Source of the DNA: Lepidostoma basale
Taxonomy: Eukaryota; Arthropoda; Insecta; Trichoptera; Lepidostomatidae
Reading direction: 5' to 3'
NCBI GenBank assembly: GCA_022606425.2
Contig: JAHDVF020000673.1
Coordinates: 310,001 to 374,000, forward strand
Length of the DNA: 64,000 bases
Both the position numbers and the translations under genes were made by a program. Of this stretch, positions 3,625-60,754 are shown piece after piece. Positions within the stretch are counted from its first letter, which is position 1. Each line of letters starts with the position of its first letter. The notes under the pieces were generated by a model. It saw only the letters and a list, made by a program, of their open reading frames with translations, was not told the origin of the DNA and did no database searches.

Positions 3625-3725
3625 GTTGTATTCCACTTATTACTTAGGTTCGACCGGTTTTGTTCTAATCAGAAGATGACACGAGAGCTGTCGAAAGCGG
3701 TCACAACTAAAAAAACAAGTGCAAT
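3625..3725 (+). repeat. family F9, hammerhead-like palindrome remnant
   Basis: At 3670-3702 CAGAAGA is followed by T, a GACA/TGTC stem with a 7-nt loop, then GAAAG and CGGTC. A partial opposite arm at 3650-3668 contains the reverse complement of a GTTTCG-like core. This is a degenerate member of the set described in the findings. Confidence 0.45.
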
Positions 3726-3774
3726 AAATCTGAATAATAATAAAGCCCGCAAGGTGTTATTGTCATGTTTAGTC

Positions 3775-3890
3775 ATGAGATTAGGGGAGAAAAATATGAA
3801 TTGCTACACCTGATTATTCAGGGCGAAATGGGGGTCGTCGAGGTGTTGGCAGGAGGCAAATCTCCTGGTTCCATTAAAAAAAAGAATGGT
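3775..3890 (+). mobile_element. LINE-C-like fragment
   Basis: A frame reading Y-E-L-L-H-L-I-I-Q-G and G-G-K-S-P-G resembles the RTE-type C-terminal segment seen in LINE-C copies (K-I-E-G-R-R-G-P-G-R). Short and degraded. Confidence 0.45.
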
Positions 3891-4009
3891 CTGGCTTAAA
3901 ACCCGCTGTTTTGGTTCGCCCGTTGTAAGTTGTCGTAGACCCCTGGGGGTCTATATAAACCACTTTGGGAATCACTGGTCTACATAGAAACTTCAATTAA
4001 CAACATTAA

Positions 4010-4475
4010 TATTATTGATGGTTGAGGTTTTTGTTTTGTAAAACTCCATTATAATTACTGTATATAATAATAAACGCGATTGTTTAATGATTTTACTTGA
4101 TTTAATTCATATATTTACTTATTATATATAAATATAATAGTATCTATGCATCTGCATCTAATATTGAAGGGAAAAATAGAGGGCCGCAGGGGGGCAGGCA
4201 GAAGGCAGATCTCTTAGCTGCGTAATGTGTGGGAATGGACGGGAATCAGAATTTACCAGAGTGATCGCCAACGTCGCGGAACCTGACAGGGCACTTTAAG
4301 AAGAAGATATAAATAGTAGTTACAAATTTGTTTCGCCTTGCGAGGGCATTTTCAAACTCTGAAAATGCCCTCGCAAAGCGAAACAAATTTTGTAACTACT
4401 ATTTATATAAGTAATTATATGAATTAAATCAAGTAAAACCATTAAAAAACCGCGTTTATTATTATATACAATAAC
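4010..4475 (+). repeat. family F3 palindromic element, split by LINE-C
   Basis: Inverted arms lie at about 4065-4134 plus 4307-4355, and 4359-4470. The central part is a near-perfect palindrome around CTCTGA. Each arm holds the hammerhead-like order: CTGANAA, T, a GCC/GGC-type stem, GAAAC, then the self-complementary ACAAATTTGT. On the plus strand GTC has become GTA. The left outer end has TGTAAAACTCCAT, the terminal module also seen in F1 and F2. Confidence 0.65.
4135..4306 (+). mobile_element. LINE-C 3' end inserted in F3
   Basis: Reads G-K-I-E-G-R-R-G and V-I-A-N-V-like segments, and ends in an AAGAAGAAGA tail. The flanks repeat ATATAAATA (4126-4134 and 4307-4315), a 9-bp target-site duplication. 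The palindrome arms of F3 are contiguous once the insert is removed. Confidence 0.75.
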
Positions 4476-5095
4476 ATTAATATTTCTAACGTTAAGGAAC
4501 CCGAAAAACAAGATGATATAATGGTAAAAAAGGTGTGTAATAATAGATTCTTCGATTCACAAAAACAAAATATGAATACGTGATATAAGCGTATACATAA
4601 TATACATGTATTAACCTATATTTCAGCGTACACACAGATATATTGTCATTTCCAATACATACGCGAATAAAATACATATACCGTATACATATAGTACGTA
4701 TCGAGGAGCACGTGAAGAATACTTATAATTTTATCAATTGTGTTTATGGTTATGATAAAAAACGTCATCTCAAGGTAAGCACCATTATTATCTTGCATTG
4801 TTTTTATCTATGGTCTTGAAGCGTCTAAGAATTATTTGATCGCATACCGGTGTCGTGGACGTTTGGAATAATACATTATTCATCCGGTATTACGGCGGCC
4901 CATTAAAAAATAATAACTTCATGTGTATGAAGATAAATATTACTCACCCAGAGTACTCAGCCGTTGCTAAGGTAATCCATCATTTCCCATCTTTGACGGT
5001 CAGCCAACAGATGTCATCTTGCTGCCGTTCTGGAATAAGGAATTCAAAATATTACTCTTTTGATGGTTTACATGTTGGCCACGATGTTACATGAT
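4476..5095. other. intergenic, nothing identified
   Basis: AT-rich. Short open frames on both strands have no recognisable domain. No repeat match was seen. Confidence 0.45.
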
Positions 5096-5121
5096 AATAT
5101 AATATATAGTAAATTCCTTCG

Positions 5122-5775
5122 TTGTGTCACGACTTGATTATTGTAATGGAATTTATGCAAACATTCCAAAACAACAAATAAACAAACTTCAATCTGCGTT
5201 CAATGCAGCAGCAAGACTCATTAAAGGCATTCCAAAAAAGTCCCATATAACACAACATCTCAAAGAACTTCACTGGCTTAAAAGTCCAGAAAGAATCCGG
5301 TATAAACTCTCCTGGACAGTTTTCAAAGCGCTACATGGAATGGCACCAAGTTATATATCTGAACTCTGTATAACGGAAGCCTAAATACAAGGAAATCCAC
5401 ACTTCGCTCGGCGAACTCCTCGCCAATAGGAAGATTAGTTGAGCCGAAGCGTTGCCCCAGTACAAATTTCGGGGATCGAGCGTTCGCGGTAGCCGGTCCA
5501 TCAGCTTGGAACAATCTCCCTTCACACCTCAGATGCATAAATGATCCGACAGATTTCAGATCTAAACTGAAAACCCATCTTTTTCATATTTCATACCAAA
5601 TTTAAACATTTATATTTTGTTCTTCTATACTTGCTAACCGATCGCGAAAATCAGATGTAGCGTTGACATTGAGATTTTTAGATTTAAAACACGTTTTAAT
5701 GCGCCCTTGAGGTGATTAGATCACAAAAACGGCGCTTTAAAAGTTAGCATATTATTATTATTATTATTATTATTA
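5122..5775 (+). mobile_element. LINE-G (CR1/Rex1-like), 3' portion
   Basis: A 5'-truncated LINE encoding the end of a reverse transcriptase. The first frame (5124-5384) reads S-R-L-D-Y-C-N, N-A-A-A-R-L-I, L-H-W-L and A-L-H-G-M-A-P-S-Y. After a frameshift near 5385 the frame to 5606 reads R-A-F-A-V-A-G-P-S-A-W-N-N-L-P and F-R-S-K-L-K-T-H-L-F, the usual C-terminal signature of CR1-group elements. It ends in an ATT-repeat tail at about 5750-5775. Clade assignment is from motif memory. A well-preserved but non-functional copy. Confidence 0.8.
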
Positions 5776-7930: not shown

Positions 7931-9251
7931 CGAGGTCTGTTCAAAAAGTATCGCGAATTTTGAATTTCCGCTGGCTACGTGTATTTGATTTTTGATTTTT
8001 TTGTAGCGTTATGTTGGTACTCATGTCCCTTATTTATGCTGACAAGGTCGGCCATTTTGAATGTTTAGTTAATTTTTGACAGCTGTTTTGCTTGGATGTG
8101 TTTTGGCTCGTCTTCGATTTTTGCCTATTCCAAAAAATGGATCAAAGAATCTGTATCAAATTTTGTGTGAAAAACAAAATAAAGTGCGCGGACGCATTTC
8201 GAATGTTGACTGTGGCATATGGTGAAGCTACCTTGGACCAAAACAACGTTTATCGGTGTTACAAAATGTTCTCAGAGGGCCGATAAGATATGAACGACGA
8301 AGAGCGTGCCGGACGCCCGAGCACGTCAACAACAGACGAAAACATTGATAAAGTGAAGAAAATAGTATTAGCCAATCGTCGAATCACCGTTAGAGAAGTT
8401 GCTGAGGACCTAAACATATCGATTGGCTCGTGCCATTCGATTTTAACCAATGATTTGGGCATGAGTCGGGTCGCCGCGAAATTCGTGCCAAAATTGCTCA
8501 ATTTCGACCAAAAACAGCATCGCGTTAACATTGCTCAGGAGATGTTGGACTCGGTCCGTGACGACCCAAATGTGCTCCAGAGGGTCATAACTGGTGACGA
8601 ATCATGGGTTTATGGTTATGACGTGGAAACCAAAGCTCAATCATCCCAATGGAAGCTGCCGCATGAGCCAAGACCAAAAAAAGCGTGCCAAGTTCGGTCG
8701 AACGTGAAGGTTTTGCTCACAGTTTTCTTCGATTGCAGGGGCGTGGTGCATCATGAGTTCTTGCCACAGGGTAGTACGGTCAATAAGGAATATAACCTGC
8801 AAGTTATGCGCAATTTGCGCGAAGCAATCCGCCAGAAACGCCCGGATTTGTGGAAGAACAAAAACTGGCTTTTGCACCATGATAACGCCCCTGCTCACAC
8901 ATCGTTGCTTGTGCGCGAATATTTGGCCAAAAACAACACAGTAATGGTGCCGCAGCCACCGTATTCCCCAGACCTGGCCCCCTGTGACTTTTTCCTGTTT
9001 CCAAAACTGAAGAGGCCCATGAAAGGACGACGCTACGCCACGATTGAGGAGATAAAGACGGCATCGAAGGAGGAGCTGAACAAGATCACAAAAAATGATT
9101 TTTTAAGTGCTTCGAGGATTGGAAAAAACGTTGGCATAAATGTATTATATCCGAGGGGAATTACTTTGAAGGGGACAAAATAGATATTCATGAATAAATA
9201 AATACTTTTTGAAAAAATATAAAATTCGCGATACTTTTTGAACAGACCTCG
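7931..9251 (+). mobile_element. mariner transposon, near-complete
   Basis: A 1321-bp element. The terminal inverted repeats are about 30 bp, beginning CGAGGTCTGTTCAAAAAGTA at the left and mirrored at the right end. It is flanked by TA at 7929-7930 and 9252-9253, the target duplication of Tc1/mariner transposons. The length, terminal repeats and a single DD34D transposase frame are what an autonomous mariner has. It lies next to LINE-B on its right. The subfamily is uncertain; a vertumnana-like type is my best guess. Confidence 0.95.
8137..9197 (+). pseudogene. mariner transposase, two disabling lesions
   Basis: DDE/D transposase for cut-and-paste movement of the surrounding mariner. I take the start at 8137 (M-D-Q-R-I-C-I-K-F-C) because family members begin with such a helix-turn-helix segment; the upstream in-frame ATG at 8092 looks like leader sequence. 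The catalytic aspartates are at codons 154 (I-T-G-D-E-S-W), 249 (H-H-D-N-A-P-A-H) and 284 (C-D-F-F-L-F), with exactly 34 residues between the last two. P-H-E-P and Y-S-P-D-L-A-P are also present. Two lesions break it. Codon 50 is TAA (8284-8286) where relatives have a sense codon. One base is missing in the T-run near 9099-9106, so the last 30 or so codons are read out of frame; the original end would be at 9197. Apart from these the frame is clean, which implies a young copy. Confidence 0.9.
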
Positions 9252-13554: not shown

Positions 13555-14073
13555 TTCTTGTTGAGAAATATGGCTGGTAAAAGAAATGGTGTCCTTTTAC
13601 CGAAATTAATGTATGGAAGCGAAGCATGGAACTGGCAAAAGAAGGATGAAAGTAGAATAAATGCAGTAGAAATGAGATCTCTCAGACGAATGTGTGGAAA
13701 CTCTGTGTATAATAATGTTGAATAAAATATAAGAAGTGAATGCGTTGCGAATGATTTTGTAATGAACAAAATAATGAAAGGATCATTAAGATGGTTTGGA
13801 CACATGGAAAAAAAGAATGGTAAAAAAAGTATATGTTAACGATGTAAATGGAACTAGAAATATTGGAAGATCGAGGAAAACGTGGCACGATCAAAGAAAT
13901 CAAATATTGAATATCGGCTAGGTACGTGAAGAGTTTGAGAAATCGACACGCGTGCATGACACGATGTATGAATGTTGAGGAAGCGAGAGAAATATTTCAG
14001 GAAAGAAAAATGTGGCAGTCCATTCTTTCTGCCTACCCCTTCGGGGAGACGGCGTGATGGTTAGTTAGTTAGT
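13555..14073 (+). mobile_element. LINE-A, 3' third
   Basis: Reads G-V-L-L-P-K-L-M-Y-G-S-E-A-W-N-W-Q, S-L-R-R-M-C-G-N-S-V-Y, S-L-R-W-F-G-H-M and, after frameshifts, S-I-L-S-A-Y-P-F-G-E-T-A before TGA and a GGTTAGTTAGTTAGTT tail. Confidence 0.85.
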
Positions 14074-14079
14074 TAAGAA

Positions 14080-14751: not shown

Positions 14752-15045
14752 TTTAAGATGGTCGGGACATATGGAAAGAATTATCGAAGAAAGAATGATA
14801 AAAAATTATATTTGAACTTCAATTATCTCAGAAGTAGTAATTTTGACTTAGAGTTTTTTCGCAGAATACCCGCGATATGTCCAAACCATCTTAATGATCC
14901 TTTCATTATTTTGTTAATAACATCATCATTCGCACCGCACTCACTTATTATATTTTCATTCGACACTCTATCATACACAGAGTATCCACACATTCGTCTA
15001 AGAGATCTCATTTCTATTGCATTTATTCTACTTTCATCCTTGGAA
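14752..15045. mobile_element. LINE-A pieces in opposite orientations
   Basis: 14752-14815 reads on the plus strand as R-W-S-G-H-M-E-R...E-E-R-M-I-K-N-Y. 14872-15040 reads on the minus strand as S-L-R-R-M-C-G-Y-S-V-Y-D-R-V-S-N-E-N-I to L-R-W-F-G-H. The two overlap in element coordinates, so this is an inversion or two insertions. Confidence 0.65.
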
Positions 15046-15262
15046 GTTGAAAATAACTTTGTTTAATCCACAAAATATTAAAAAACACGACATGTTTCGG
15101 AGGATTAAAAAAATGTAAAGGTGTAAAAAATATAATTAAAAAAAATAATAAAAAATAAAATTATATTTTTACACCTGAAGATCCTCCGAAACGTGTCGTG
15201 TTTTTAAAATATTTTTAAAAATATTTTGTGGATCAAACAAAGTTATTTTCAATTTCCTAAGT
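15045..15262. repeat. family F6 palindromic element
   Basis: Arms of about 75 bp: AATAACTTTGTTTAATCCAC at the left edge and its reverse complement near 15235-15255. Both arms carry a CGAAAC-TGTCG core (minus strand at about 15085-15112, plus strand at 15187-15199). The A/T-rich centre separates the arms. Confidence 0.75.
15167..15205 (+). ncRNA. hammerhead-like motif, F6
   Basis: CTGAAGA (from 15175) is followed by T, a very short CC-containing segment, GAAAC, GT and GTC. The four bases before CTGAAGA (ACAC) pair with GTGT after GTC, giving a plausible stem I. Stem II is weak. This is pattern recognition, not proof of cleavage. Confidence 0.4.
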
Positions 15263-17189: not shown

Positions 17190-17430
17190 ACCTTATTTAT
17201 TTATTGTTTCTTAAACAATGATGTAAAACTCCATATTAAATAATTAATACGAATGAAAACGTGTGTTTTCTTGAAGTTTTATTTTATTTTAAGTGAATGA
17301 AATGTTTCGGCTATCTAAGGCATCAACTAATGTAGCTACATTTGATAATACAGCAGAAAAATGTCATTTATATTAAATATAATAAAACTTCTAGAAAACA
17401 GCCGTTTTCTCGTATTAATTACGAAACCTT
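17190..17430. repeat. family F1 element, near complete
   Basis: The left end has the terminal module (TGTTTCTTAAACAATGATG, AAACTCCATATTAAAT), then the left arm (GAATGAAAACGTGTG to GAAATGTTTCGG). The right arm is CTTCTAGAAAACAGCCG to CGTATTAATTAC. GAAACCTTA appears at both flanks (about 17187 and 17424), a candidate 9-bp target duplication. Confidence 0.65.
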
Positions 17431-19239: not shown

Positions 19240-19560
19240 TAGAATAATAATAATATTATTTATATTTAAAATAAAAAATAAATAAAAACACTGCACTTTG
19301 TTTTTCACCACTATGCGGTTATTTTAATTGCAGACTAGTTTCGCTTGTACCCAAGCTTCCTCAGAGCTTCATAATTAACAGGGATTACGAAGCCCTGAGG
19401 AAGCTTGGGTACAAGCGAAACTAGTCGGCAATTAAAATAACCGCATAGTGGTGAAAAACAAAGAGCAGTGTTTTTATTTCTATTTTATTTTAAATATAAA
19501 AGATACAATTTATTAAAATGTCTTACCACAAAGTGAATGCTTCGTACGAAAATTTAATAA
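19240..19560. repeat. family F4 palindromic element, complete
   Basis: Long arms at about 19281-19372 and 19386-19495, with CACCACTATGCGGTTATTTT and its reverse complement. Each arm holds the hammerhead-like core. The right outer end, CTTACCACAAAGTGAATGC, is repeated in inverted form at the left end of the copy at 27140, which identifies the true terminus. Confidence 0.8.
19391..19429 (+). ncRNA. hammerhead-like motif, F4
   Basis: CTGAGGA (19395-19401) matches the core CUGANGA exactly. One extra A follows, then AGCTT/AAGC-type stem II with a GGGTAC loop, GAAAC, the self-complementary ACTAGT and C. GCC before the core pairs with GGC after GTC (stem I). The minus-strand arm carries the same motif. 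Confidence 0.5.
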
Positions 19561-19699: not shown

Positions 19700-20340
19700 T
19701 ACGTGATATTTTGAAAATTCATTACATTTTTCACAGACCTATTTTATTATTAACACAAATTTTTTCAATATTAATTTTTTTTAACTTTTGTACATTGTAA
19801 AAAAACATATTTTATTATTTGAAAAAGTTATGTCATAACTGAAACCTGTCAATGAAAAGTTTAATAAAGTGTCGTAAAAAGACTAATTGCGGTTACATTT
19901 ATTTAAATTTGGTAACTATATCTTATTTTTGGTTTAAAGATTAAGTGTATAAGAGACTGTTATAAAAAGTGATGCAATTTAATATAAAAATAACACGCTG
20001 ATGTGTTTTTATTTGAATTAGTAAAAAAACGTATTTTATTTTCGGGACTTGATTACTTTTGCCTTTCCACTACCGATATCCTCCCTGCAATGACGCGACC
20101 GGCACTTGCCCTTGAAGCTCGAGATTATGCAATACAACCGCGGATCGGGTTCGCCAAATGTGGGTACGGAACGGTATATCCTTTGTGGTATCTAAGTCCA
20201 GACTTCGGGCTTGAGATGGGGAGGACGTGCATATACTCGTATATTCAAATCATTTTTTTATTCCATTTTTGAAATTCCTAAATGGCAGATAAGTCCACTT
20301 AAATTAGTATACTAGTATACATTTTTCATTTTAGTATACG
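19700..20340. other. intergenic, nothing identified
   Basis: An 89-codon plus-strand frame (20003-20272) has no recognisable domain. No repeat match. Confidence 0.4.
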
Positions 20341-20789: not shown

Positions 20790-20995
20790 CTAATTTATTT
20801 AACCACGGTATGGTTATTTTACTTGATGCCAACTAGTTTCGTTTGGACCCAAGCTTCACTGACGTAGTATTATAACTAAAACTTTTGTTTTAACTAAAAC
20901 AAAAGTTTTAGTTATTATACTGCCCTGATAAGGCTTAGGTCCAAGCGAAACTAGTTGGCATCAATTATAATAACCATACCGTGGTTAAATAGAAA
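20790..20995. repeat. family F4 variant with inner hairpin
   Basis: Outer arms about 20795-20868 and 20919-20990 (ACCACGGTATGGTTATTTT and its complement). At the plus-strand core CTGATAA is followed by a GCTT/AAGC stem, GAAAC, TAGTT and GGC. Between the arms lies a second near-perfect hairpin (20871-20917, TAACTAAAACTTTTGTT arms). Confidence 0.7.
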
Positions 20996-28500: not shown

Positions 28501-28519
28501 GATTGAAAAATTGAAAATG

Positions 28520-28690
28520 AAAATTGTTTCGCCTTGCGAGGGCATTCTCAAACTCAAAGTTCGAGTTTTGAGTTTGAGTTTTCGCCTTGCGAGTTTGAAA
28601 CTCAGTTTGAGAATCCCCTCGCAAGGCGAAACCAATTTGTCACAATTTCTATAATTCATATAAATTAAATCCAAGTAAAACCACTAAACA
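28520..28690. repeat. family F3 palindromic element
   Basis: Left arm TTGTTTCGCCTTGCGAGG, right arm GAATCCCCTCGCAAGGCGAA, with an extra copy of the centre between them. The plus-strand core is TTTGAGAATC, CCC..GGC stem, GAAACCAATTTGTC. Confidence 0.65.
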
Positions 28691-29825: not shown

Positions 29826-29834
29826 TAATTTTAG

Positions 29835-30739: not shown

Positions 30740-31070
30740 TTACAGAATTTTTTTCCCAATACACTAAAGATACAAGTTAGAGATACACAATAATATACAT
30801 AACTCTTTAATTGAACCACTGTTGATAATATCACAATTGATTTAATTTCTATGAAATTGTCGCGATAGCTGTATCGCTAACCAATATTAGCATCATCAGG
30901 TGTTACAATCAAGTTGATACACCTGATGATGTTAACATCGGTTAGCGGAACAGCTGTCGCGACAATTTCATAGAGATTAAATCAATTGTGATATTACATA
31001 ACAGTGTTTCAATTAAACGGTTAATAATGTTGAAATATCAAAGTGTTTCCGCCAAAACAATGGATTATAA
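30740..31070. repeat. family F5 palindromic element
   Basis: Arms about 30815-30908 and 30917-31025, more than 90 bp each, with ACAATTGATTTAATTTCTA and its complement. Both arms hold the core with CTGATGA. Confidence 0.8.
30917..30966 (+). ncRNA. hammerhead-like motif, F5
   Basis: CTGATGA (exact) is followed by T, a stem ending in TTAGC, GGAAC (one change from GAAAC), the self-complementary ACAGCTGT and C. The minus-strand arm pairs GCTAA with TTAGC more cleanly. Stem I is not obvious here. Confidence 0.4.
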
Positions 31071-34604: not shown

Positions 34605-34850
34605 ATTCCACTTTTTTCTTTATTTCGAGAGCGACTGGTTTCGCCAGGCTCGCTGGCATCGATATACTTTGTCGATGCCAGCGAGCCTGGCGAAACCGGT
34701 CTCTGTCGAAATAAAGACAAATGTGGAAGTAGGTCCACATCGTTTTAATTTTATTATTTGAAATGAACTTCCGTCAAGAGATTTCAGTAAAATCATTTGA
34801 TTAATTTAATATTGAGTTTTATATCATTGTTCAAGAAACAATAAATCATA
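34605..34850. repeat. family F2 palindrome with terminal module
   Basis: Arms around 34665: CGACTGGTTTCGCCAGGCTC and GAGCCTGGCGAAACCGGTCT. The plus core is TTGTCGA, T, GCCAG/CTGGC stem, GAAAC, CGGTC. To the right the sequence runs through GAACTTCCGTCAAGAG into ATTGTTCAAGAAACAATAAA, the same module that ends F1. Confidence 0.75.
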
Positions 34851-38179: not shown

Positions 38180-40240
38180 GCAACAGTGAAAAGAAATGTG
38201 AGTACGACAGAAATATATAAATTTGTTAAAAATGTGAAAGTGAGAGTGAAAGAAAGCAAGGATATTAAATTATAAGGAGAGTAATAAAGAAAAGGGTATT
38301 CGATTCATTCAATCGTTCTGACTTCATTTAGGTGGTTAAGCTTACTGTTTTATTTTATAAGACTTACGCAATATTATTGTCATTAGGAATAAGGAAAAAA
38401 AAACTTCATTCACTTTCACAAAAAAAAATGAGATATAAAAAAATATTTCACGAGAAATTACGTATATTTTTAATATAATATAGAATATAAATGTTTATAA
38501 GCACTGAATAATGTAGAAACAAGTGCAGACATATTTTAACATTAAAAATATATTATATAATATAATATACGGTTTATTATTTTTGAATTTATTTATTTTG
38601 CAAATATATATTATTTGATTGTATTCCCATGAGTAGATTTCTCATTATGGGACAAAGTAATGATTAACATTATATACATACACAATATCCCTTCGGGGAG
38701 ATGGCATGATGGTAAGTTAGTTAGTTAGTCAGTTAAATATTCAATTATTATATAACATTGGGAAAATAGTAAAAACCAACACATTTCGAAATTTGATTAT
38801 CTTTTTATCAATATATTAAAGACAGAAAAAATAAGAGACACGAATAAACATATTATCAAAATGAATTGGTTATTGAAATTTAAAAATATAAATAATGGTA
38901 ATTAATTAAATAAAAAAGTTCGTTAAGTCCAGAAGATGATTCTATCGAAACCTGTCAAATCCATAACCCTTAGTTGATATTAACTTAATATGTAATTAAA
39001 AAAATACATAATTATATTTTTACTTTGTAATGTAAATTTAGGTTATTTTACTAAATGACTGCCCCTATATTATTACGTTATAAATATATGTTATTACTAG
39101 ATTTTTCTTTCTACAAAATATCACTATTAAATCATAAAGTGTTATCACACAAATAAATATACAATATAATATATTAATTCGCAAATAATTTAAAATTCCA
39201 ATAAGATCCAATTCGCGATTTAAGATGAGGTTCCCGAGAAATCGCTTAATTTAATTTTGGTTAAATCCTTATTTTATCATTTCAGAATTATTAAATACTA
39301 AATTTTAGTAGGTATTATTAGAAAAAAACAACGTGTTCAGATGATTTAATCATTATATACATATTAAAAAATAATTTATTTGTAATAAAACTAATTACCG
39401 TTATTTTAATTGATATTTAATATGTCACAATCATTTATAATTTAATTTAATTAATTAATGATTTGAGAATTAATAATGAAGATTTTTTTAGATAGGCGTT
39501 TCAATCGTCAGGTGAATTAATAATATAATAAATTAATTATGATTTAATTAAAATGTTTAACAAGAGAACAAGATCGTTTGGCGTAGAACACCTGGCTCTT
39601 GATTCAATGGTAGTGATTTCGCTTCAGATTACGACCTACATTCACAAAAAAATAATTCTGCTTCTTCATTAGATTATACTTCCATATTGAGAGACATAAA
39701 TGTAAAATCTATCAAATCAGAATTGTCTACTTCTATAAATTTTAACGATGGTCATATTTATAACCAATGTTGGTAATCCTACTTATGGAGTTACGCAATA
39801 CCGGATTATTTGCGATTTTTATAAATCTATGGAATATTGTATGAGTGTCTATTGCCTAAGCAATAATGTGAAACTCAATGTTAAATGGCAAAAATAAAAA
39901 TATAACTTCATGATTTTGAAATCGATACGGAAAATTTTCTAATCAGATTCCATGAAAATCATTTGTATGTTGTACGTATTCAGAAGAAATATTCATTAGC
40001 CTATAAGGATGATTATTTATTATTGTAGGTAATGTTTTTTTATTATTTATTTTTATTATTAATTAGAAACTTACTGTTTAAATCTTGTTTTATTGAGGAC
40101 GCCGGTCATGAAAAAAAAACCCGACTGGAAATGGGTTTTAAAATAAAATGTGTTTTAATCGCGTGCAATCTGCGTGCTATTGTCGAACGAAGAAAAGTGT
40201 TTTCATAGGCGAATGATATTTTAAAATGTAAACTTCGGCG
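38180..40240. other. AT-rich intergenic, mostly unidentified
   Basis: 38687-38737 is a LINE-A tail (CCCTTCGGGGAGATGGCATG plus TTAG repeats). 38770-38985 has a degenerate hammerhead-like pair: CATTTCGAAATTTGATTATC (inverted) and CAGAAGATGATTCTATCG with AAACCTGTC. The rest shows no frame above 70 codons. Confidence 0.4.
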
Positions 40241-42428: not shown

Positions 42429-42727
42429 AAAGTTTAAGGTATAATTCTCGATTATTTATATTTAGGAAACAAAACCCTTCCTTGGTAAGAATGAAAAAAA
42501 AAAACAATCAATTGTACATTAACTTTGTGGTTGCAAATGTAACTTAACCCCTTGGCTTACCTAATTTATTTATTTATTTGTTATTTGTATTGAATGTAGG
42601 AGAAGAAGAAAGTATTATGAACAAAAATTTAATTGTTTTAAGTTTTTACATATAAAATGCATGGATGAAGAAGGGATGGTTTAAACATTAAGCCATCTCA
42701 GGTATCTCTAAGAAAAAAATTATTTAA

Positions 42728-43518
42728 ACTAACTAACTAACCATCACGCCGTCTCCCCGAAGGGGTAGGCAGAAAGAATGGACTGCCACACCTTTCTTTC
42801 CTGACATATTTCTCTCGATTCCTAAACATTTATACATCGTGTCATGCACGCGCGTCGATTTCTCTGACTCCTCACATGGCCGACATTCAATATTTGATTT
42901 ATTTGATCGTACCACGATTTCCTCGGTCTTCCTCTGTTTCTGGTTCCATTTACATCATGAACATATAATTTTTTTTACCATTCTTTCTTCATTCATTCTT
43001 TCCATATGTCCAAACCATCTTAATGATCCTTTCATTATTTTGTTTATGACACCATCATTCGCACCGCATTCACTTCTTATATTTTCATTCGACACTCTAT
43101 CATACACAGAGTATCCACACATTCGTCTAAGAGATCTCATTTCTACTGCATTTATTCTACTTTCATCCTTCTTTTGCCAGTTCCATGCTTCGCTTCCATA
43201 CATAAGGGTCGGTAGAAGAACACCATTGTGCACTGCCATTCTAGCTTTTTTGGATAGGTTTTTGTTTGCGATGACAACTTTAAGTGCACCATTCACTTTG
43301 TTGCCTGCCCCAACCCTTCTTTGAATATCCCTCTCCACTCGCCCATCTCTTGTAAACATAGGTACTACCTAAATACACGAACTCAACTACTTGCTGCAAA
43401 TTTTCACCATTCACGCTAATGTTGCAGACTGTCATGGTTTCTTCCTTTTCAATAATCATTACCTTGGACTTATTAACATTCATCATCAGATCATTTCGCA
43501 TGCATACCTCATACATTA
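42728..43518 (-). mobile_element. LINE-A, longest uninterrupted copy
   Basis: Begins in the M-Y-E-V-C-M-R-N-D-L-M-M-N-V-N-K-S segment (43516), continues I-S-V-N-G-E-N-L and F-V-Y-L-G-S, then after one frameshift (near 43350) M-F-T-R-D-G-R-V-E-R-D-I, K-A-R-M-A-V-H-N-G-V-L-L-P-T-L-M-Y-G and S-L-R-R-M-C-G-Y-S-V-Y-D-R. A stop follows near 42955; the C-terminal part reads through G-D-G-V. TTATTTAA at 42720-42727 and 43525-43532 is a likely target duplication. Confidence 0.9.
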
Positions 43519-47084: not shown

Positions 47085-47310
47085 TATATCCATTTCGACA
47101 GCGAACGGTTTCGCCAGGCATCGACAGACTAGTAATAAGACAAAATAAAGTCTGAACCCGTTCTCATGTTACAAGTTTTACTAAGGATTCGAACTATGCA
47201 ATAATTAATACTAAATTTTCACAGACTGGTTACCAGTCTGACGATGCTAGTAAACCTGTCGAAACCAGTCGCTGTTGAAATAAAGACAACAGTGGATGTG
47301 GTTTTTATAA
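47085..47310. repeat. family F2 palindrome, interrupted
   Basis: Left arm to 47135 (CGACAGCGAACGGTTTCGCC), about 85 bp of unrelated sequence, then the right arm from 47220 with AAACCTGTCGAAACCAGTCG and AAATAAAGACAACAGTGG. Confidence 0.7.
47233..47275 (+). ncRNA. hammerhead-like motif, F2
   Basis: CTGACGA (47238-47244) matches CUGANGA exactly. T follows, then a GCTAG-containing stem, GAAAC, CAGTC. CAGT before the core pairs with GCTG after GTC as a 4-bp stem I (one G-U). Confidence 0.5.
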
Positions 47311-48785: not shown

Positions 48786-49075
48786 TTATATGACGTCAAC
48801 ATAAAAAAATGAATATGTTAATAAAATAATTTAGTTCATTTGTGCTATTATGTAATAGATTGCGGAAATTAAATACTGCAAGTGTAACAATAAAGTCACG
48901 GACATGTTAAAGTTCATAAAAATCGACGTGTGTGCATAAACTGCTAGTTGAATGTGGATAATACCGATGAATGGTATTTCTGTGTAGAAGATGTGGCGGT
49001 CTTTTCAGACTATGTCAAAGGGGAAATATTCGAATATTTTTTTGAAAGCAACAGAAACAACTTTTTTTTTGCTCT

Positions 49076-49125
49076 CGTCACAAACATGTTTCGGAACACA
49101 GACGCCAATTCTCAGTGTAGAAATT
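49076..49125 (-). ncRNA. hammerhead-like motif, F11
   Basis: On the minus strand: CTACA, CTGAGAAT, a stem ending TTCC, GAAACATGTT and TGTGACG. CTACA pairs partly with TGTG. Position 8 of the core is A not G. Confidence 0.35.
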
Positions 49126-50052: not shown

Positions 50053-50250
50053 TTTATGAATTAAAACACTGTTTTTTCCACCTTTGAGTTTATTCTTCTC
50101 TACATATAAACACACTCAACGACGACGATATAAACTCACGATACATATAAACAATTTATATTGGGTTTATATCGTTTTTCCGATGATGAAGGTGTAAAGC
50201 CTTCGAAACATGTCGACAAAAATTAACTCAAGTGTTTTAATTCATAAAAA
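50053..50250. repeat. family F7 element
   Basis: Short outer arms ATGAATTAAAACACT and AGTGTTTTAATTCAT bracket about 165 bp. Only the right side holds the ribozyme-like core. Confidence 0.65.
50176..50217 (+). ncRNA. hammerhead-like motif, F7
   Basis: CCGATGA (U4 changed to C), T, then a clean GAAGG/CCTTC stem with a TGTAAAG loop, GAAAC, the self-complementary ACATGT and C. TTTT before the core can pair with GACA after it only in part. Confidence 0.45.
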
Positions 50251-52238: not shown

Positions 52239-52288
52239 CTTTTCACAAACATATTTCGGAACAATAGATGTCCTTCATCAGTGTAAAA
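52239..52288 (-). ncRNA. hammerhead-like motif, F11, best stem I
   Basis: Minus strand: TTTTTACA, CTGATGA (exact), A, GGACA...TGTTCC stem II with one bulge, GAAAT, ATGTT, TGTGAAAA. The eight bases before the core pair with the eight after GTT (one G-U), a full stem I. The cleavage triplet would be GUU, allowed by the NUH rule but less common than GUC. Confidence 0.5.
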
Positions 52289-52301
52289 AAATTAACAATA
52301 C

Positions 52302-53559: not shown

Positions 53560-53725
53560 ATGTTTTTTAAAACTAATTCAACTTTTATAATTATTTCACC
53601 AGGTTTCACCAGGTTAGCTGGCATCGACAGACTTACCGGTCTATTGATGCCAGCAAGTCTGCTGAAACCGGTCGCTTTCGAAATAAAGATAAAAGTGGAA
53701 GTAGTTAAAAATAACATATTTGTTT
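53560..53725. repeat. family F2 palindrome
   Basis: Arms CACCAGGTTAGCTGGCATCG and CGATGCC-like CCAGCAAGTCTGCTGAAACC. Right core near 53642-53684: TATTGATGCC, CAGCA...TGCTG stem, GAAAC, CGGTC. Confidence 0.7.
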
Positions 53726-55352: not shown

Positions 55353-56726
55353 GGGGTTAGGGGCAGTCAGAGGTATGAAAAAAACTAACATTTTTAATAA
55401 ATTATAATTGTTAGTAATTTTCATTATTTTATAAAACCAACAATATAAAATTATTATATTAAGTTTTAACTTGATTTGACCCAAATTTAAAAAAAATATA
55501 CAGAAATTATATATGAAGTTATCGCTATGTCTCTTGGACCCTATTCCATAATGCGGTGACCAGTATAAATTCTTACAGGTTCATCTTAAGGTGTCTGGTA
55601 ACTTAAGCCGATTTTCGTGTCTTTTTTGGAGGGCGTTTTTTTGTAGGAAAATGAAAAAGAATCGTTTTGGAAATTTAGGATATTTTTATTTACATATGAT
55701 TTGATTGATACAAAAAAATTAAAAAAAAAAAAATTAATAGTTAATATTATTAATCGAAGTTGGCACCTCGAAAAAAAAAGCGCGTGGGTGGCCCGGGTGA
55801 TTTTGGCTCTTGATGTTATCTGAAATCAAAATTTCTTGAAAATTCTTAATCTAAAGACATGTCATTCTGGTCGGAACTACAGAAATTAAATTTCATGGAT
55901 AAATAACAAAATGGCGGACTTTGAAAAATAGGCAGCGAAAACAAAAAGTTAGGGGTGAAAAACTGACATGTCTTTAGATTAGGAATTTTCAAGAATTTTT
56001 TATTTCAGATAACATCAAGAGCCAAAATCACCCGGGCCACCCACGCGCTTTTTTTTCGAGGTGCCAACTTCGATTAATAATAATAATAATAAACTATTAA
56101 ATTAAAAAAAAAAAAAATTGTTTCTTTAATATGTAAATAAAAATATCCTGAATTTCCAAAACGATTCATTTTCATTTTCCTACAAAAAAACGCCCTCCAA
56201 AAAAGACATGAAAATCGGCTTAAGTTAACAGACTACTACCTTAAATCATTCAAATAAAAAAAATATTACTAAAGTTAATCTAGTGCCTGATCGGATGATT
56301 TTTTCTTTTTAAAAACTAATATTTATTATAAACAATTAACTGTTGCATTTTTCCTTGAAAATCCATAAGTAAATTGCCAATGGCCGGCATTTTGTTTATT
56401 TGCAAATAAAATAAAATAAAGACTTCGATCTGGCATTAGATTAAGTATGTGTTTATTTATTATAATATTTTATTTATTTATTTGAATGATTTTAGATGAA
56501 CCTGTAAGAAATTACAATTAACCCCGCAAAGCACCACTAATAGAACAGGCTCCAAAAAATATGGCGATAGCTTCATATATACATATCTTCAAATTTGGGT
56601 CAAATTATGTTAAAACATAATATAATAGTTTAATATTGTTGGTTTTATAAAATAAATTAAATTACTGACAATAAATATATATTGAAAATACATGTTTTTT
56701 CATACCTCTGACTTCCAATAAACCCC
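55353..56726. mobile_element. TTAA transposon (piggyBac-like), outer
   Basis: Ends GGGGTTAGGGGCAGTCAGAG and, inverted, GGGGTTTATTGGAAGTCAGA, continuing to AGGTATGAAAAAA. TTAA lies at 55349-55352 and 56727-56730. Arms extend inward for over 200 bp each side. Non-coding. TTAA target duplication is the hallmark of piggyBac-type elements, though the ends are not typical piggyBac ends. Confidence 0.75.
55590..56240. mobile_element. TTAA transposon, inner, nested
   Basis: 651 bp with arms of about 275 bp. Starts GGTGTCTGGTAACTTAAGCC and, inverted, GGTAGTAGTCTGTTAACTTA. TTAA flanks at 55586-55589 and 56241-56244. Removing it gives GGTTCATCTTAAATCATTC, which matches the undisturbed opposite arm of the outer element (about 56485-56505, complement GGTTCATCTAAAATCATTC). 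Confidence 0.85.
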
Positions 56727-57614: not shown

Positions 57615-57925
57615 CATAAAGCCCATGGCAGCTTAGCGTTTTCTTTACATTTGAAAATAACAAAACATCTACATGTATGTGAAATTGGTTCCTAACGTTC
57701 CACCTGAAATGTTAGAAATAAATATTTTCAAGATGAAGGAATCGTTTCTTTTGTTTCTGTATTTTTATGCAAAATTTTAGGTACTTTCAAAGTGATTAAA
57801 TTTAAAATAATTTATGTATTATATTATTTTTACGTATCTAAATGATTAATATTATTTTTGTGATTTCTTCACATCCATTAATCCTATTCACTTTGGGATT
57901 GTTTTACATATATTATATTCCTTGT
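57615..57925. other. AT-rich intergenic
   Basis: No frame or repeat recognised. Confidence 0.4.
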
Positions 57926-57929
57926 TTGT

Positions 57930-58205
57930 TGTTTCTTGAATAATGATGTACAACTCAATATTAAATATTCAAATGATTTTACTGAAATCTCTTGATGGAA
58001 GTTCATTTTAAATAATAATGAAAAAACGATGTTTTTTTAACTACTTCCATTTTTGTCATTATTTCGACAGCGACCGGTTTCGCCAAGCTCACTGGCATCG
58101 ACAGACTGGCACCAGTCTGTCGATGCCAGCGAGCCTGACGAAGCCGGTCGCTGTCGAAATAAAGACAAAAGTGGAAGTAGTTAAAAAAACATATTTTTTA
58201 AAATT
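57930..58205. repeat. family F2 element with terminal module
   Basis: Module TTGTTTCTTGAATAATGATG at left, GATTTTACTGAAATCTCTTG, then arms ACTTCCATTTTTGTCATTAT...CGACAGCGACCGGTTTCGCC and the complement. Centre GACTGGCACCAGTC. The best complete F2. Confidence 0.8.
58111..58154 (+). ncRNA. hammerhead-like motif, F2
   Basis: CTGTCGA (A6 changed), T, GCCAG stem, then GACGAAGCCGGTC where one C-to-T-type pair of changes has altered GAAAC to GAAGC. The minus-strand arm keeps GAAACCGGTC. CAGT/GCTG can form stem I. Confidence 0.4.
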
Positions 58206-58209
58206 ATTA

Positions 58210-58455
58210 TCCATATTAAATACTTTATACGAATAAAAACGTTAATTTTCTAGAAGTTTATTTATAAATTATGGAAATGACATGTTTTGTATGTCTAAGG
58301 AATTATGCGTAAACCAAATGTCATTTGATAACACCTCAGACAGGTGAAACTTGTCATTACCATAAAATATACATTTATAAAAGTTCTAGACATCAAGCAT
58401 TCATTCATATTTAAAATAAGTTTACACCATTGTTTAAGAAACAGTAAATATACTT
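58210..58455. repeat. family F1 element, complete
   Basis: Near duplicate of 53740-53965, with right arm AACACCTCAGACAGGTGAAAC-like core, and the terminal module CACCATTGTTTAAGAAACAG after it. Confidence 0.75.
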
Positions 58456-58489
58456 TTTATTATTATTTATGTTTAAAATAAAATCAAAT

Positions 58490-59195
58490 AAAAACACTAC
58501 ACTTTGTTTTTCACCACTATGCGGTTATTTTAATTGCCGACTGGTTTCGCTTGTACCCAAGCTTCCTCAGGGCTTCGTAAAGCGATATTAGTCGGTAATT
58601 AAAATAACCGCATAGTGGTGAAAAACAACGAGCAGTGTTTATATTTTATTTTATTTTAAAACTAACTAACTAACTAACCATCACGCCATTTCCCCGGAGG
58701 GGTAGGCAGAGAGGATGGATCGCCACACTGGCCTGTCCTGGCATACCTCTCGGGCTTCCTCATTCTACTCTCATCCATTCGTTCCATATGTCCAAACCAT
58801 CTCAGGGATCCTTTTTTAATTTTATCCATGATGCAGTCATCTGCCTTACATTCCTTTCTTATTTCATCGTTCGGTATTCTATCATACAACGTTTTCCCGC
58901 TCATTATTCTTAGTGATCTCATTTCTACAGCGTTTATCCTGCTTTCATCCTTCTTTTGCCAGCTCCAAGCTTCACTTCCATACATGAGGGTTTGCACTAG
59001 AACTCCATTGTGTACTGCCATCTTTGATTCTGTGAATATATTTCTATTTGCAGTAATGCCTTTGAGTGCACCATTTATTTTATTCCCAGCACCAACCCTC
59101 CTTTCGATGTCTAACCTTTCGATTTAATTTTAAATACAAATAATATATATTTTTAAATGTCTTACCACAGAGTGAATGCTTCATACGAAAACAGT
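58490..59195. repeat. family F4 element, split by LINE-A
   Basis: 58490-58661 holds both arms (right core deleted: TTCGTAAAGCGATATTAGTC). The right terminus CTTACCACAGAGTGAATGC is at 59161-59180. ATTTTAAA at 58654-58661 and 59127-59134 is the target duplication of the LINE. Confidence 0.75.
58662..59120 (-). mobile_element. LINE-A inside F4
   Basis: The minus frame 58674-59021 is open: M-A-V-H-N-G-V-L-V-Q-T-L-M-Y-G-S-E-A-W-S-W-Q, S-L-R-I-M-S-G, L-R-W-F-G-H-M-E-R-M-D-E-S-R-M, then a deletion to R-K-P-E-R-Y-A-R-T-G. Tail of four CTAA units. Confidence 0.85.
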
Positions 59196-59199
59196 AAAT

Positions 59200-59635
59200 A
59201 AATATTTATTAATGTTAAATATGCTTTACAAAATAGGTGATTTATTTTTAAGTAAAATTAATCATAAATTATCAAGTGTCACATCTGTCATTAACTCACG
59301 AGAAGAACTGAATCTTGTCGAGTCTTGCGATGCGATACTTTTGGTGCCAAAGCGACTAGCAAAATGTTTACGTAACGAGACTTGGCAACTTCCTCTGCCC
59401 AAATATTTGGGAAATGTAGACCGTACCTTATATCTAGTATATTATACGAGTACTATATACTATTTATGCGCGATGATACAATATCGATTTAGTTTTCTTT
59501 CCGAACGGAAATTCTCACAACACCCCGTATTTTCTCTGTAAAACAGATTTTTTTTAATTAATAAAGTTTACGGCAGTGAATTTATCAATGAAAGCATAAA
59601 TGGTTGTTCAGAATGGAGTTTTCATTTCATTTTCG
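59200..59635. other. unique sequence with an unexplained 121-codon frame
   Basis: The plus frame 59176-59541 starts inside the F4 terminus and has no recognisable domain, so I do not call it a gene. Confidence 0.4.
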
Positions 59636-59732
59636 TTTTCATTTTCATTTATTTGAATAAAAATCACAAACATTACAGACATAATTCCAGATCGTTTGCA
59701 ATTACATCATAAGAATTTATAATAGAAGTATA

Positions 59733-60127
59733 CAACAACAACAACAACAAACCATCACGCCGTTTCCCCGTAGGGGTAGGCAGAGAGAATGGACCGCCAC
59801 TCTACTCTATCCTGGCACACCTCTCTAGCTTCCTCCACATTCATTTGGCTTCTGACATGACCAACTTTTAATATTTGATTAATTTGGTCATGCCATGTTT
59901 TCCTCGGTCTATCTCGACTCCTTACTCCATTTACATTGTTAACGTATACTTTTTAACCATTCTTTCTTCACCCATGCGCTCCATATGTCTGAACCAACGC
60001 AGCGAACCTTTCATAATTTTGTTCATAATACCTTCTTTCGCTCTACATTCCTTCCTAATATCAGCATTTGATATTCTGTCGTACATCGTTCTACCACACA
60101 TACGTCTTAGGGACCTCAGAATGGAAG
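59733..60127 (-). mobile_element. LINE-A in F10, first
   Basis: Tail of CAACAACAACAACAA instead of CTAA units, then stop, C-terminal codons with a deletion, V-G-H, R-P-R-K, K-K-Y-T-L-T-M and S-L-R-R-M-C-G-R-T-M-Y. ATAGAAGTATA at 59722-59732 and 60128-60138: an exact 11-bp target duplication. Confidence 0.85.
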
Positions 60128-60184
60128 ATAGAAGTATAAAAAACATTAAGATTAGAATTAAACATGAAGAATTAGAAAGAATCA

Positions 60185-60342
60185 AACAAACCATCACGCC
60201 GTTTTCCCGCAGGGGTAGGCAGAGAGAATGGACCGCCACACTACTCTATCCTGGCAAACCTCTCTAGATTCCTCCACATTCATACAACGAGTCATACACG
60301 CACGTCGATTCCTCCGACTTCTAACATGACCAACTCGATAAT
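60185..60342 (-). mobile_element. LINE-A in F10, second
   Basis: The minus frame 60194-60376 is open: V-G-H-V-R-S-R-R-N-R-R-A-C-M-T-R-C-M-N-V-E-E to S-A-Y-P-C-G-K-T-A. GAATCA at 60179-60184 and 60343-60348 flanks it. Confidence 0.8.
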
Positions 60343-60754
60343 GAATCATAACGTTGATATTGCATCCCTGAGGCAACTCACACTATCACGAAATATGTCG
60401 ACCTCCGAGGCGACCCTATTAAGCAATAAGATTGCCCTACCCACCAGATTATTTTATTTGCCGCGCTGCAGAACCAACCTGCCAATGGTTATGCCTGTGG
60501 GTAGGGGAATCTTATTGCTTAATCGGGTCGCCTCGGAGGTCGACATATTTCGTGATAGTGTGAGTTGCCTCAGGGATGCAATAGCAATGTTATGATTATT
60601 TCTACTTCCTTAATCTTAATGTTTTTTTTATGCTTCTCTTATAAATTATTATTATGTTATTATGGCAAACGATCTAGAATTATATGTCTGTAATGTTTGT
60701 GATTTTTATTAAAAATAAATTAAAATGAAAATTAATCAAAAATGAAAAAATGAA

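Follow-up and report, generated by a model that had tools for sequence, protein, structure and literature searches.

Repeat families in the window

The window, by which we mean the whole 64-kb stretch of Lepidostoma basale DNA analysed here, contains repeats that have different arms and share one ordered string: CTGANGA or a near variant, one extra base, stem II, GAAAC, a self-complementary stem III and H17. We sorted these repeats into families A to J, ten in all, with A' as a sub-family of A (Table 1). Families A, A', B, C, D, E and I are palindromic, their palindromes consisting of two copies joined head to head. An earlier sequence-only reading had placed the string in about ten unrelated palindromic families; the count of ten and the difference between arms stand, but A and A' proved to be related, F has only 20-nt outer arms, and G, H and both J sites had no inverted repeat at the script threshold of 14. 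Window copies of families G (CAGAAGA, with an imperfect stem III), H and I are either weak or damaged, and intact copies of I occur elsewhere in the genome, in loci of Penelope-like elements (PLEs). Many window copies are individually decayed. The one transposase open reading frame (ORF) seen in the window, at 8287-9183, is of mariner type, and none of the six window ORFs scanned combined a reverse transcriptase (RT) with a GIY-YIG domain.

Table 1. Hammerhead-like motifs, palindromes and possible coding starts, in window coordinates (R1, covariance model; training or held out, inside or outside its training set)
Feature	Position	Strand	Evidence
Family A palindrome, two putative leader copies head to head, motif on each arm	19252..19508 (ends approximate)	.	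Inverted repeat I1, 127-nt arms, 92%
Family A motif, CTGAGGA, extra base A, stem III ACTAGT, GTC	19325..19372	-	R1 45.6 bits, E 9e-11, training
Family A motif, opposite arm, identical core	19387..19434	+	R1 45.3 bits, training
Family A motif in palindrome ~58459-58663; core lost from other arm	58531..58578	-	R1 45.9 bits, training
Family A' motif, extra base G; palindrome 20796-20991	20917..20964	+	R1 40.9 bits, training
Family A' other arm, decayed	20824-20869	-	
Family B motif, left arm; palindrome ~30798-31023	30858..30907	-	Inverted repeat I7; R1 35.4 bits, training
Family B motif, right arm	30915..30964	+	R1 31.7 bits, training
Family C motif; family of the genome's PLE P0100	58064..58112	-	R1 39.3 bits, training; compared with L006-L016
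Family C motif, opposite arm	58109..58157	+	R1 24.4 bits, held out
Family C palindrome nested in E unit; outermost ~57924-57965 is E tail	57924..58210	.	
Possible first codons of family C PLE ORF, MNFHQEISVKSF, 99 nt past core start	57971..58006	-	
Family C motif, left arm, decayed core	34625..34673	-	R1 28.0 bits, held out
Family C motif, right arm	34661..34709	+	R1 36.9 bits, training
Family C motif, CTGACGA core intact, imperfect stem II	47230..47278	+	R1, training
Family C palindrome centre, two decayed motifs	53584..53681	.	R1 E 0.087 and 0.2
Family D palindrome, motif per arm (left E 0.14), core TTGAGAA	29891..29991	.	R1
Family D palindrome, both motifs, minus-arm stem III ACAAATTTGT	4317..4398	.	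Inverted repeat, scan, R1
Family D palindrome, both motifs	28515..28645	.	R1, both held out
Family E unit: motif, ~60 nt, then ATG and possible MEFYIIVQETIN codons	35667..35805	-	
Family E palindrome, long end and short end, GAAACCTTA flanking repeats	17198..17421	.	
Family F motif; ATG and possible MDFHSVKFIYKYQSL 84 nt past core start	50172..50222	+	R1 37.4 bits, training
Family G motif, CAGAAGA; inverted repeat absent at threshold used	3662..3710	+	R1 35.9 bits, training
Family H motif, weak, non-palindromic	38922..38964	+	R1 18.3 bits, E 0.0085, held out
Family I palindrome; motif 15167-15205, stem II lost	15042..15257	.	R1 E 0.022, held out
Family J motif, non-palindromic, 8-bp stem I by reading	52240..52289	-	R1 21.0 bits, E 0.0014, held out
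Family J motif, non-palindromic	49075..49123	-	R1 20.6 bits, E 0.0018, held out

Frequency of the string against chance

The string was concentrated at an insertion of exactly one base. When stem III was demanded and no more than one mismatch allowed, the window held six sites at insertion 1 and none at insertions 0, 2, 3 or 4, and 40 local dinucleotide shuffles gave no site at insertion 1; the six sites are partly non-independent (families A, with two arms, A', B, C and F). When up to two mismatches were allowed, insertion 1 had 11 sites, the shuffles averaging 0.4 (maximum 3), and insertions 0, 2, 3 and 4 had 0, 0, 2 and 1. The excess was smaller when the stem III requirement was dropped (25 sites versus 7, 9, 3 and 10 at 0, 2, 3 and 4; shuffle means 3.9-4.8). 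Across 29 loci fetched from the same genome, we found 16 distinct motifs at insertion 1 compared with 3, 0, 4 and 0 at the other four lengths, and shuffle means were 0-0.1. Both the window and the fetched-loci scans demanded H at position 17. The possibility, raised with the original observation, that the string is as common as chance would have it was contradicted by the shuffles of both sets.

A covariance model (R1) built from 15 window sites matched 42 sites in the window at E<=2 and 29 at E<=0.01, 14 of the latter outside the training set; the palindromes at 60344-60597 and 55586-56244 had no match at E<=2. The Rfam 15 hammerhead models, run without a positive control, reported no copy of the motif. 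Since the Rfam models are silent, annotation relying on them may record such repeats only as nameless palindromes or as weak hits to microRNA hairpins. None of six single motifs folded clearly better than its shuffles (z -1.42 to 1.22).

Core letters, extra base and stem pairing

Nearly all sites carry one extra base and so depart from the textbook hammerhead, in which stem II directly follows A9. Among the 34 best rows this base was T in 25, A in 6, C in 2 and G in 1. The core strings CTGANGA and GAAA, ordered around stem II, are exact in family A and several fetched loci and have one or two changes in most other families and loci. Families A and B, like several fetched loci, have a whole CTGANGA; GAAAC is also intact in A and at loci including L018, L032, L033 and L036, and several window families show core changes (CAGAAGA, CCGATGA, CTGTCGA). 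The site ending at position 17 is mostly GTC and sometimes GTT or GTA, with G at position 17 in the copy at L025:17-64.

Positions 3 and 8 tended to change together. The 34 rows comprised C-G in 16, T-A in 11, C-A in 4, T-G in 2 and A-G in 1 (p=2.9e-4 ignoring relatedness, 0.055 on 11 family representatives). C-G is replaced by T-A in families D and E; the family D core TTGAGAA thus reads T and A at these positions.

Stem I played no part in site selection. Within families, stem I positions were paired in 15 of 18 cases in the window versus 10.0 expected (permutation, p=0.0024), and in 14.9 of 18 versus 9.3 expected in other copies from the same genome (p=4e-5; range for these copies 2-4e-5). 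An alignment control gave 22 double changes compared with 8.3 and a covariation of 0.41 compared with 0.17, with none of 500 shuffles as high; two further measures lay within the shuffle range, namely pairs with a double change (94 of 500) and pair types (55 of 500). In this control 62.2% of stem I cells were paired, with families B and D out of register, and stems II and III were 97.8% and 80% paired, both having served for selection. The motif accordingly has the three-stem pairing of a type I hammerhead, in stem I by permutation and in stems II and III as selected, and the absence of covariance that would have spoken against the sequence-only reading was not what we found. That reading had allowed the extra base to mark either a variant class or an inactive relic; given the recurrence of the base from family to family and the maintained pairing of stem I, a variant class fits better.

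Architecture of the palindromes and their ends

All nine pairs of neighbouring window motifs no more than 60 nt apart are head to head. Among the 17 neighbouring pairs within 260 nt, ten are head to head, three tail to tail and four tandem, each tandem pair joining two different families. In the family E unit that surrounds a family C palindrome, unit positions 74-131 align with 57976-57924 and positions 4-100 with 58306-58210.

The ends of the units fall into short and long forms. In each of the eight family C PLE copies examined, one end lies near 93 nt and the other near 140 nt, with a few nucleotides of play in L015 and L011. Of 26 family E arm ends, ten lie at 88-101 nt, seven at 127-135 nt and nine elsewhere. 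The optional one-ended PLE tail of about 30-40 bp is thus present in the C copies and partly in the E arms. Six of the eight PLE copies have flanking repeats of 12-13 nt (chance 0-0.0175 each), as in PLE target site duplications, and two sit in (TA)n; only one of 19 window palindromes had a clear flanking repeat near its ends. Near-identical arms are common (1423 of 1424 aligned positions in L011), and at sites that vary between copies the arms differed in only three of eight PLE copies, a count in which L009 and L010 may be non-independent.

Association with Penelope-like elements

A search of the same genome for GIY-YIG domains gave 62 matches. One of them, P0100 (L010:2507-4780), is a 758-aa ORF with RVT_1 at residues 302-478 (1.4e-13) and GIY-YIG at 651-734 (6.6e-5), similar to RT proteins of other insects; family C thus has a genome copy with an RT and a C-terminal GIY-YIG domain. 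A family C motif lies 378 nt past the end of this ORF and an inverted one past its other side, and L009 is alike. From the 62 matches we chose 20 further loci, 19 of which could be placed with P0100. Nine of these 19 carried ten same-strand motifs 0-500 nt downstream, against two motifs on the opposite strand, and the other ten had no same-strand motif in that interval. Seven of the nine (L018, L019, L020, L021, L028, L031 and L033) form one related group with 78-94% DNA identity, and two of the ten motifs are weak matches (L019, E 0.051; L026, E 0.069). Given the group of seven, the weak motifs and the ten blank loci, the direct link extends to roughly four PLE groups rather than ten; no PLE ORF was seen next to motifs of family A, B, F, G, H or J. 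A terminal repeat (pLTR) with the hammerhead motif adjoins the ORF in L009 and L010, and a motif adjoins the GIY-YIG match in these nine loci. The earlier suggestion that the repeats are Penelope-like terminal repeats or their relatives is supported, as the search for a PLE RT near copies succeeded for family C and the motif also lies beside GIY-YIG domains.

The same suggestion gains from the long repeat ends, which in some families could encode PLE N-termini. The putative start codon apparently lies 84-124 nt after the core start. When ATG peptides were compared with 71 PLE N-termini, the scores of A, A', E and F were matched by only 2-13 of 1331 window ATG peptides; those of C and B were unremarkable (48 and 121 of 1331 as high). 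An M-x-[FY] start occurs in only 17 of the 71 PLE proteins, and we recovered no leader-ORF junction. In the family C element, the core lies ~29 nt past the end of a TATA-like box, which would place transcript starts at the ribozyme edge.

Origin of the units and palindromes

Taking the observed motif, extra base, stem I pairing and PLE ORF or GIY-YIG association with the observed head-to-head order, unlike ends and flanking repeats of the PLE copies, we consider it quite probable that the units are PLE 5' leaders and the palindromes integration products primed on both target strands. Each unit would be the leader of one PLE family, headed by a type I hammerhead in which stem III is self-complementary and A9 precedes one extra base, followed by about 50-90 nt and, in long copies, by the start codon and the first 12-15 codons. 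The PLE enzyme would cut both target strands, and reverse transcription would begin inside the RNA at two sites, one directly before the start codon, giving the short end, and one ~47 nt further, giving the long end or PLE 'tail'. Extension of both strands would run along the leader RNA as far as its 5' end, and the resulting pair of copies would be joined, so that hammerheads meet centrally and start sites face outwards. Self-cleavage, the transcription start, the ORF start and two-strand priming are what we infer in this scheme, and two-strand priming is the favoured source of the palindromes.

The units could be PLE leaders and still owe their head-to-head form to self-priming on an antisense transcript, with the cDNA folding back and copying itself. 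Self-priming has been proposed for Adineta Penelope elements, which have abundant head-to-head inverted repeats and palindromes at the junction (PMC3846280, as available in part), and it suits the near-identity of many arms. The unlike outer ends of all eight PLE copies are instead what two separate start events would give, and arm differences in three of these copies, together with the extension of both strands by an Anolis PLE protein in vitro (the accessible part of PMC11167929), also argue against it; we regard self-priming as unlikely. Slightly less unlikely, to our minds, is that the leader keeps its hammerhead fold as a structure that binds protein or serves at the start site, with self-cleavage weak or irrelevant. 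The same part of PMC11167929 reports that hammerhead-dead mutants still insert in vitro, that cleavage requires protein and that reads showed no RNA ends at the predicted site, and the altered cores of several window families agree with such a role. Against it stand the intact cores of other families and loci and the co-change at positions 3 and 8, with the weaker value on family representatives noted above.

The two remaining explanations detach the repeats from PLE leaders. Retrozymes, non-autonomous tandem hammerhead repeats that spread via RNA circles, have a similar size and a type I hammerhead, and small animal retrozymes may be mobilised by PLEs (PMC7229834 and PMC7761336, partial texts); they are direct tandem repeats, however, and no same-family tandem pair occurs among the 17 neighbouring pairs of the window, which makes this origin very improbable. 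That the palindromes are relics of DNA transposons (MITEs), with the string a chance or DNA-level motif, would account for the inverted repeats and the size of about 200 bp, but we give it almost no weight in the face of the shuffle tests, the within-family pairing and the PLE association.

Beyond the reading as PLE leaders primed on both strands, we tentatively suggest, with less than even confidence, a distinct class of hammerhead shared by the PLEs of this insect, with an obligatory base between A9 and stem II and, in natural versions, a U3-A8 core pair, placed at the transcription start, the palindromes being fossils of two-strand priming. Such a position would yield short leader RNAs reverse-transcribed from both target strands, and the genome, filled with hammerhead palindromes, would then be a fossil record of PLE two-strand priming with a ribozyme on each strand. 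At stake are the role of the hammerhead in PLEs, called unknown in the consulted part of PMC7761336, and PLE integration, on which the available parts of PMC3846280 and PMC11167929 differ. This genome offers several families that are arranged alike, PLE copies that have flanking repeats as well as clean short and long ends, and a near-constant core insertion.

Comparison with known systems

Minimal type I PLE hammerheads (Cervera and de la Pena 2014; Lunse et al. 2017), as described in citing papers, likewise adjoin PLE ORFs, and their stem III, tiny or self-complementary as in L. basale, would favour dimers. The L. basale motif nearly always has a base between A9 and stem II, which may set it apart from them. 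The plus-strand hammerhead of chrysanthemum chlorotic mottle viroid (PMC3705267) shares one unpaired base between A9 and G10.1, although it belongs to a viroid RNA and not to a retroelement, and its extra base is A. There the extra A moderately lowers the rate and C or G is harmful; replacing that A by U, the counterpart of the T that is commonest in L. basale, reportedly makes trans-cleavage 3-4 fold higher.

Inverted pLTR pairs of Adineta vaga (PMC3846280) share head-to-head repeats and palindromic junctions, with a one-end 31-bp tail and 8-10 bp target duplications as further parallels. The Adineta pairs surround ORF-bearing copies, whereas the window palindromes appear to be leader only; the word 'hammerhead' is absent from the available text. 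Animal retrozymes (PMC7229834) are likewise small non-coding units with type I hammerheads, but form tandem direct repeats that give RNA circles. The Anolis carolinensis element PAc (Poseidon; PMC11167929) shares an RT and GIY-YIG ORF, a hammerhead at the leader-ORF junction and two reverse-transcription start sites with the tail between them. Its protein cuts and extends both strands with two internal start sites, and the known 30-40 bp tail is the sequence that separates these. The ORF of PAc starts at stem II, with the cut 26 nt after the start codon, in contrast to the apparent start codon 84-124 nt past the core start in L. basale. There are precedents for hammerheads in PLEs, for insertions of a single base and for inverted repeats of PLEs; the variant here is the near-constant extra base.

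Hammerhead-like motif and its inserted base

In substance, the repeat families of the window (A with sub-family A', and B to J) carry hammerhead-type motifs of probable leaders of Penelope-like retrotransposons (PLEs, with a reverse transcriptase and GIY-YIG ORF), in a variant with a single near-constant extra base, and most of the families are arranged as head-to-head copies. The sequence-only reading had proposed an ordered hammerhead-like string with one constant additional base between CTGANGA, which ends at A9, and stem II. We scanned the window allowing 0–4 inserted bases after CTGANGA. Requiring stem III and allowing no more than one mismatch, we found a one-base insertion at six sites and insertions of 0, 2, 3, or 4 bases at none, and 40 local dinucleotide shuffles gave 0 sites with one inserted base. 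When two mismatches were allowed, 11 sites were found, compared with a shuffle mean of 0.4 and maximum of 3; scan sites are partly non-independent because some are both arms of one palindrome. The string and its single inserted base are therefore real, and the string exceeds the chance level given by shuffling. Trained on 15 sites of the window, a covariance model matched 29 sites at E ≤ 0.01, including 14 outside its training set, and revealed the two sites of family J, which were previously unnoticed. Many window copies have a damaged core and are relics.

The extra base was T in 25 of 34 model matches, A in six, C in two, and G in one. Across 29 loci fetched from elsewhere in the genome (200,076 bases; at most one mismatch; means of 0–0.1 in 10 shuffles), there were 16 distinct motifs with an insertion of one base, three with 0, and four with 3, although at least one of the three and two of the four were the same sites, or sites of family I, in a different register. 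A chrysanthemum viroid carries an A at this place in its plus-strand hammerhead; the A reportedly slows cleavage moderately, C or G is reported as harmful, and a change of A to U as raising trans-cleavage three- to fourfold (PMC3705267). By analogy, the extra base would be compatible with activity and has precedent, since this viroid hammerhead carries a base at the same place. The unusual point is that it recurs across about 10 families. At the level of titles and abstract openings, we found no literature description of PLE hammerheads in which a base constantly follows A9.

Window features by position
Position	Strand	Feature	Observation
595–725, 13940–14075, 29690–29830, 42727–42860, many more	both	~120-nt dispersed repeat	Adjoins a TTAGTTAGTTAG run in several places; resembles a SINE or the 3' end of a LINE
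8287–9183		Open frame for a transposase of mariner type	298 aa; Transposase_1, DDE_3
15042–15257		Family I palindrome	Covariance model, E 0.022
19811–19858, 39485–39519, 22632–22659		Candidate motifs, rejected	E 0.04–1.1; probably chance
55586–56244		~660-nt self-complementary stretch	Inner arms 93 nt, 97% identity; no hammerhead model match
~57966–58210		Family C palindrome	Inside a family E unit
60344–60597		Inverted repeat, rejected as additional family	No covariance-model match at E ≤ 2; arms 101 nt, 96% complementary
61472–62671	−	Reverse transcriptase fragment	RVT_1 2.1e-28; relatives with names are from insects, mostly beetle and fly, which marks the window as insect DNA; GIY-YIG not found in it

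Evidence for a hammerhead fold

Pairing in stems II and III is partly built in because both were used in the search, while stem I was not. We compared stem I pairing in nine window families, one representative each, with a null in which 3' strands were swapped between families (20,000 permutations). Over the first 18 positions, 15 paired versus 10.0 expected (p=0.0024); with three positions, the values were 19/27 versus 13.3 (p=0.012), and with A', G, and H left out, 11/12 paired (p=0.0056). Copies elsewhere in the genome (24/25 distinct motifs, hand-grouped into nine families; all 362,880 permutations) gave family means of 14.9/18 versus 9.3 (p=4e-5) and 21.7/27 versus 12.8 (p=2e-5); seven of nine families were common to both tests, so the copies in the second were new but most families were not. 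In an alignment of 15 window motifs, double-sided changes occupied 22 cells versus 8.3 (0/500 shuffles), and slid structures paired 15%–45% of cells versus 80%. Stem I pairing is thus kept within families, both in the window and elsewhere, and the absence of stem covariance that the sequence-only reading named among its refuting outcomes was not observed. Two other measures from this alignment were close to the shuffles: pairs with a double change (5 versus 3.6; 94/500 shuffles as high) and further pair types (13 versus 10.6; 55/500 as high).

The active fold pairs positions 3 and 8, as shown by mutants cited in PMC11167929. Over the 34 model matches, these positions were C-G in 16, T-A in 11, C-A in four, T-G in two, and A-G in one, an association with p=2.9e-4 when kinship is ignored and 0.055 on 11 family representatives. 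The first pair of stem II was G-C in 15/15 model rows. None of six single motifs folded clearly better than its own shuffles. Rfam 15, searched without a positive control, yielded no hammerhead for the window under either gathering scores or E ≤ 10, nor for nine PLE loci at E ≤ 5; its microRNA matches on the palindromes were all under gathering scores and are accounted for by long hairpins. Together, sequence comparison indicates that the window motifs are in substance hammerhead-type, a variant with a near-constant extra base. One hammerhead-like motif elsewhere in the genome (L025:17–64, minus strand; 7-bp stem I by reading) is probably uncleavable there because position 17 is G.

Association with Penelope-like elements

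A GIY-YIG search of the whole genome (769-Mb assembly, 1572 contigs) gave at least 62 matches, with 150 of 541 candidates scored. Of the PLE-type frames in the fetched loci, the longest is P0100 (758 aa, on L010), which contains RVT_1 and GIY-YIG in PLE order and resembles reverse transcriptase proteins of Phthorimaea, Euphydryas, Schistocerca, and Diabrotica. The family C motif known from the window lies in its terminal repeat (pLTR), 378 nt past the ORF, with a second, inverted copy on the other side; a TATATAAA box spans approximately −36 to −29 relative to the core. Twenty further loci were drawn from the 62 places, and in 19 the position of the domain could be fixed by comparison with P0100. 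A same-strand motif lay 226–493 nt downstream in nine of these 19 (10 motifs, two weak), compared with two opposite-strand motifs in this interval; overall, same-strand matches numbered 31 and opposite-strand matches 22. The suggested Penelope connection is thereby supported. Seven of the nine motif-bearing loci (L018, L019, L020, L021, L028, L031, and L033) carry motif I and form one related group (DNA 78%–94% identical); L029 carries family E, and the motif of L026 belongs to another family. Counting family C, the direct link therefore extends to about four PLE groups. In the remaining window families, a putative link rests on the shared motif and putative N-terminal codons. The other 10 of the 19 diverse loci had no same-strand motif within 500 nt downstream, through either decay or absence of the motif from some PLE families.

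Two contigs, C102 (L001/L013) and C729 (L003/L014), have long bacterial-type ORFs, UvrC-like by reading, around the GIY-YIG match; they look bacterial and are perhaps from a symbiont or contaminant.

Head-to-head copies and their ends

All nine motif pairs within 60 nt were head to head, three of them including a match with E above 0.05. The C3-C3 gap was 0–30 bases in 11 of 14 pairs (exceptions 55, 62, and 110; positions partly hand-placed). In all eight PLE copies bearing C motifs on both sides (L006–L011, L015, and L016), one end lay near 93 nt and the other at ~140 nt, with a few nucleotides of play in L011 and L015; six had flanking repeats of 12–13 nt and two lay within (TA)n, and L009 and L010 are near-identical and may be non-independent. 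Given the unequal ends and flanking repeats, each copy has the appearance of a single integration event that started at two distinct sites. Among eight E palindromes, two had two short ends, three had a short and a long end (one long end at 143 nt), and three were unclear. Clear flanking repeats were found in only one of 19 window palindromes, perhaps because the copies are old.

The protein of PAc, the Poseidon PLE of Anolis carolinensis, cuts and extends both strands, and has two internal start sites whose spacing equals the PLE tail (PMC11167929). A PLE enzyme priming on both target strands, with short leader RNA as template, would produce palindromes of ~150–300 bp with motifs central and start sites outermost, as in the window. 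Head-to-head Penelope copies have also been attributed to self-priming on antisense RNA (PMC3846280), a mechanism that we consider less likely here. An arm-difference test for two templates gave a weak signal. The best explanation, which we regard as probable, is that the repeat units are PLE leaders and the palindromes integration products; two observations reduce its strength: seven of nine motif-bearing loci fall into a single group, and families C and B have unremarkable N-terminal peptides.

Palindromes can also be nested: the E unit interrupted by a C palindrome continues as two parts, at unit positions 4–100 and ~92–131, whose ~9-nt overlap is like a target duplication. At L006:320–368, the left flank, a family C PLE is inserted near the predicted cleavage site of a hammerhead-like GAAACATGTT string of another family. 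PLEs may favor each other's leaders as targets.

Leader and putative ORF start

Counted from the core start, 10 of 26 family E arms end at 88–101 nt and seven at 127–135 nt; the remaining nine, including the seed, end elsewhere. Long ends contain an ATG 84–124 nt past the core start, followed by codons for MSYHKVNASYENLII in A, MNFHQEISVKSFEYL in C, MEFYIIVQETIN in E, and MDFHSVKFIYKYQSL in F. We scored the ATG peptides gap-free against the N-terminal 12 residues of 71 PLE-like proteins, selected from 120 for a length of at least 790 aa and an initial M. Among 1331 stop-free window ATG peptides, a set that includes family copies, equal or better scores numbered two for A', seven for A, seven for F, 13 for E, 48 for C, and 121 for B. 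The top N-terminal partner of A was MEYHKVSEDYVL and that of F was MDFHQVKAENIY, and an M-x-[FY] start occurs in only 17 of the 71 PLE proteins versus 10% of window ATGs. Placement of the motif within a leader, ahead of a putative ORF start, is well supported by these peptide comparisons for A and F and has fair support for E; for C, the leader reading rests on the PLE copies themselves.

The extra T could itself create a start codon (A9-T-G10.1 reading ATG), comparable to the start of the PAc ORF, but we rejected this for family C because the frame stops after 11 codons in all 16 C copies of the eight PLE copies. A second ATG downstream could start the PLE N-terminus in this family. This kind of system is already known, and what is worth pursuing is the extra base and the record of short and long ends. 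In PAc the ORF starts at stem II, whereas here the putative ORF start lies beyond it, at the 84–124 nt spacing.
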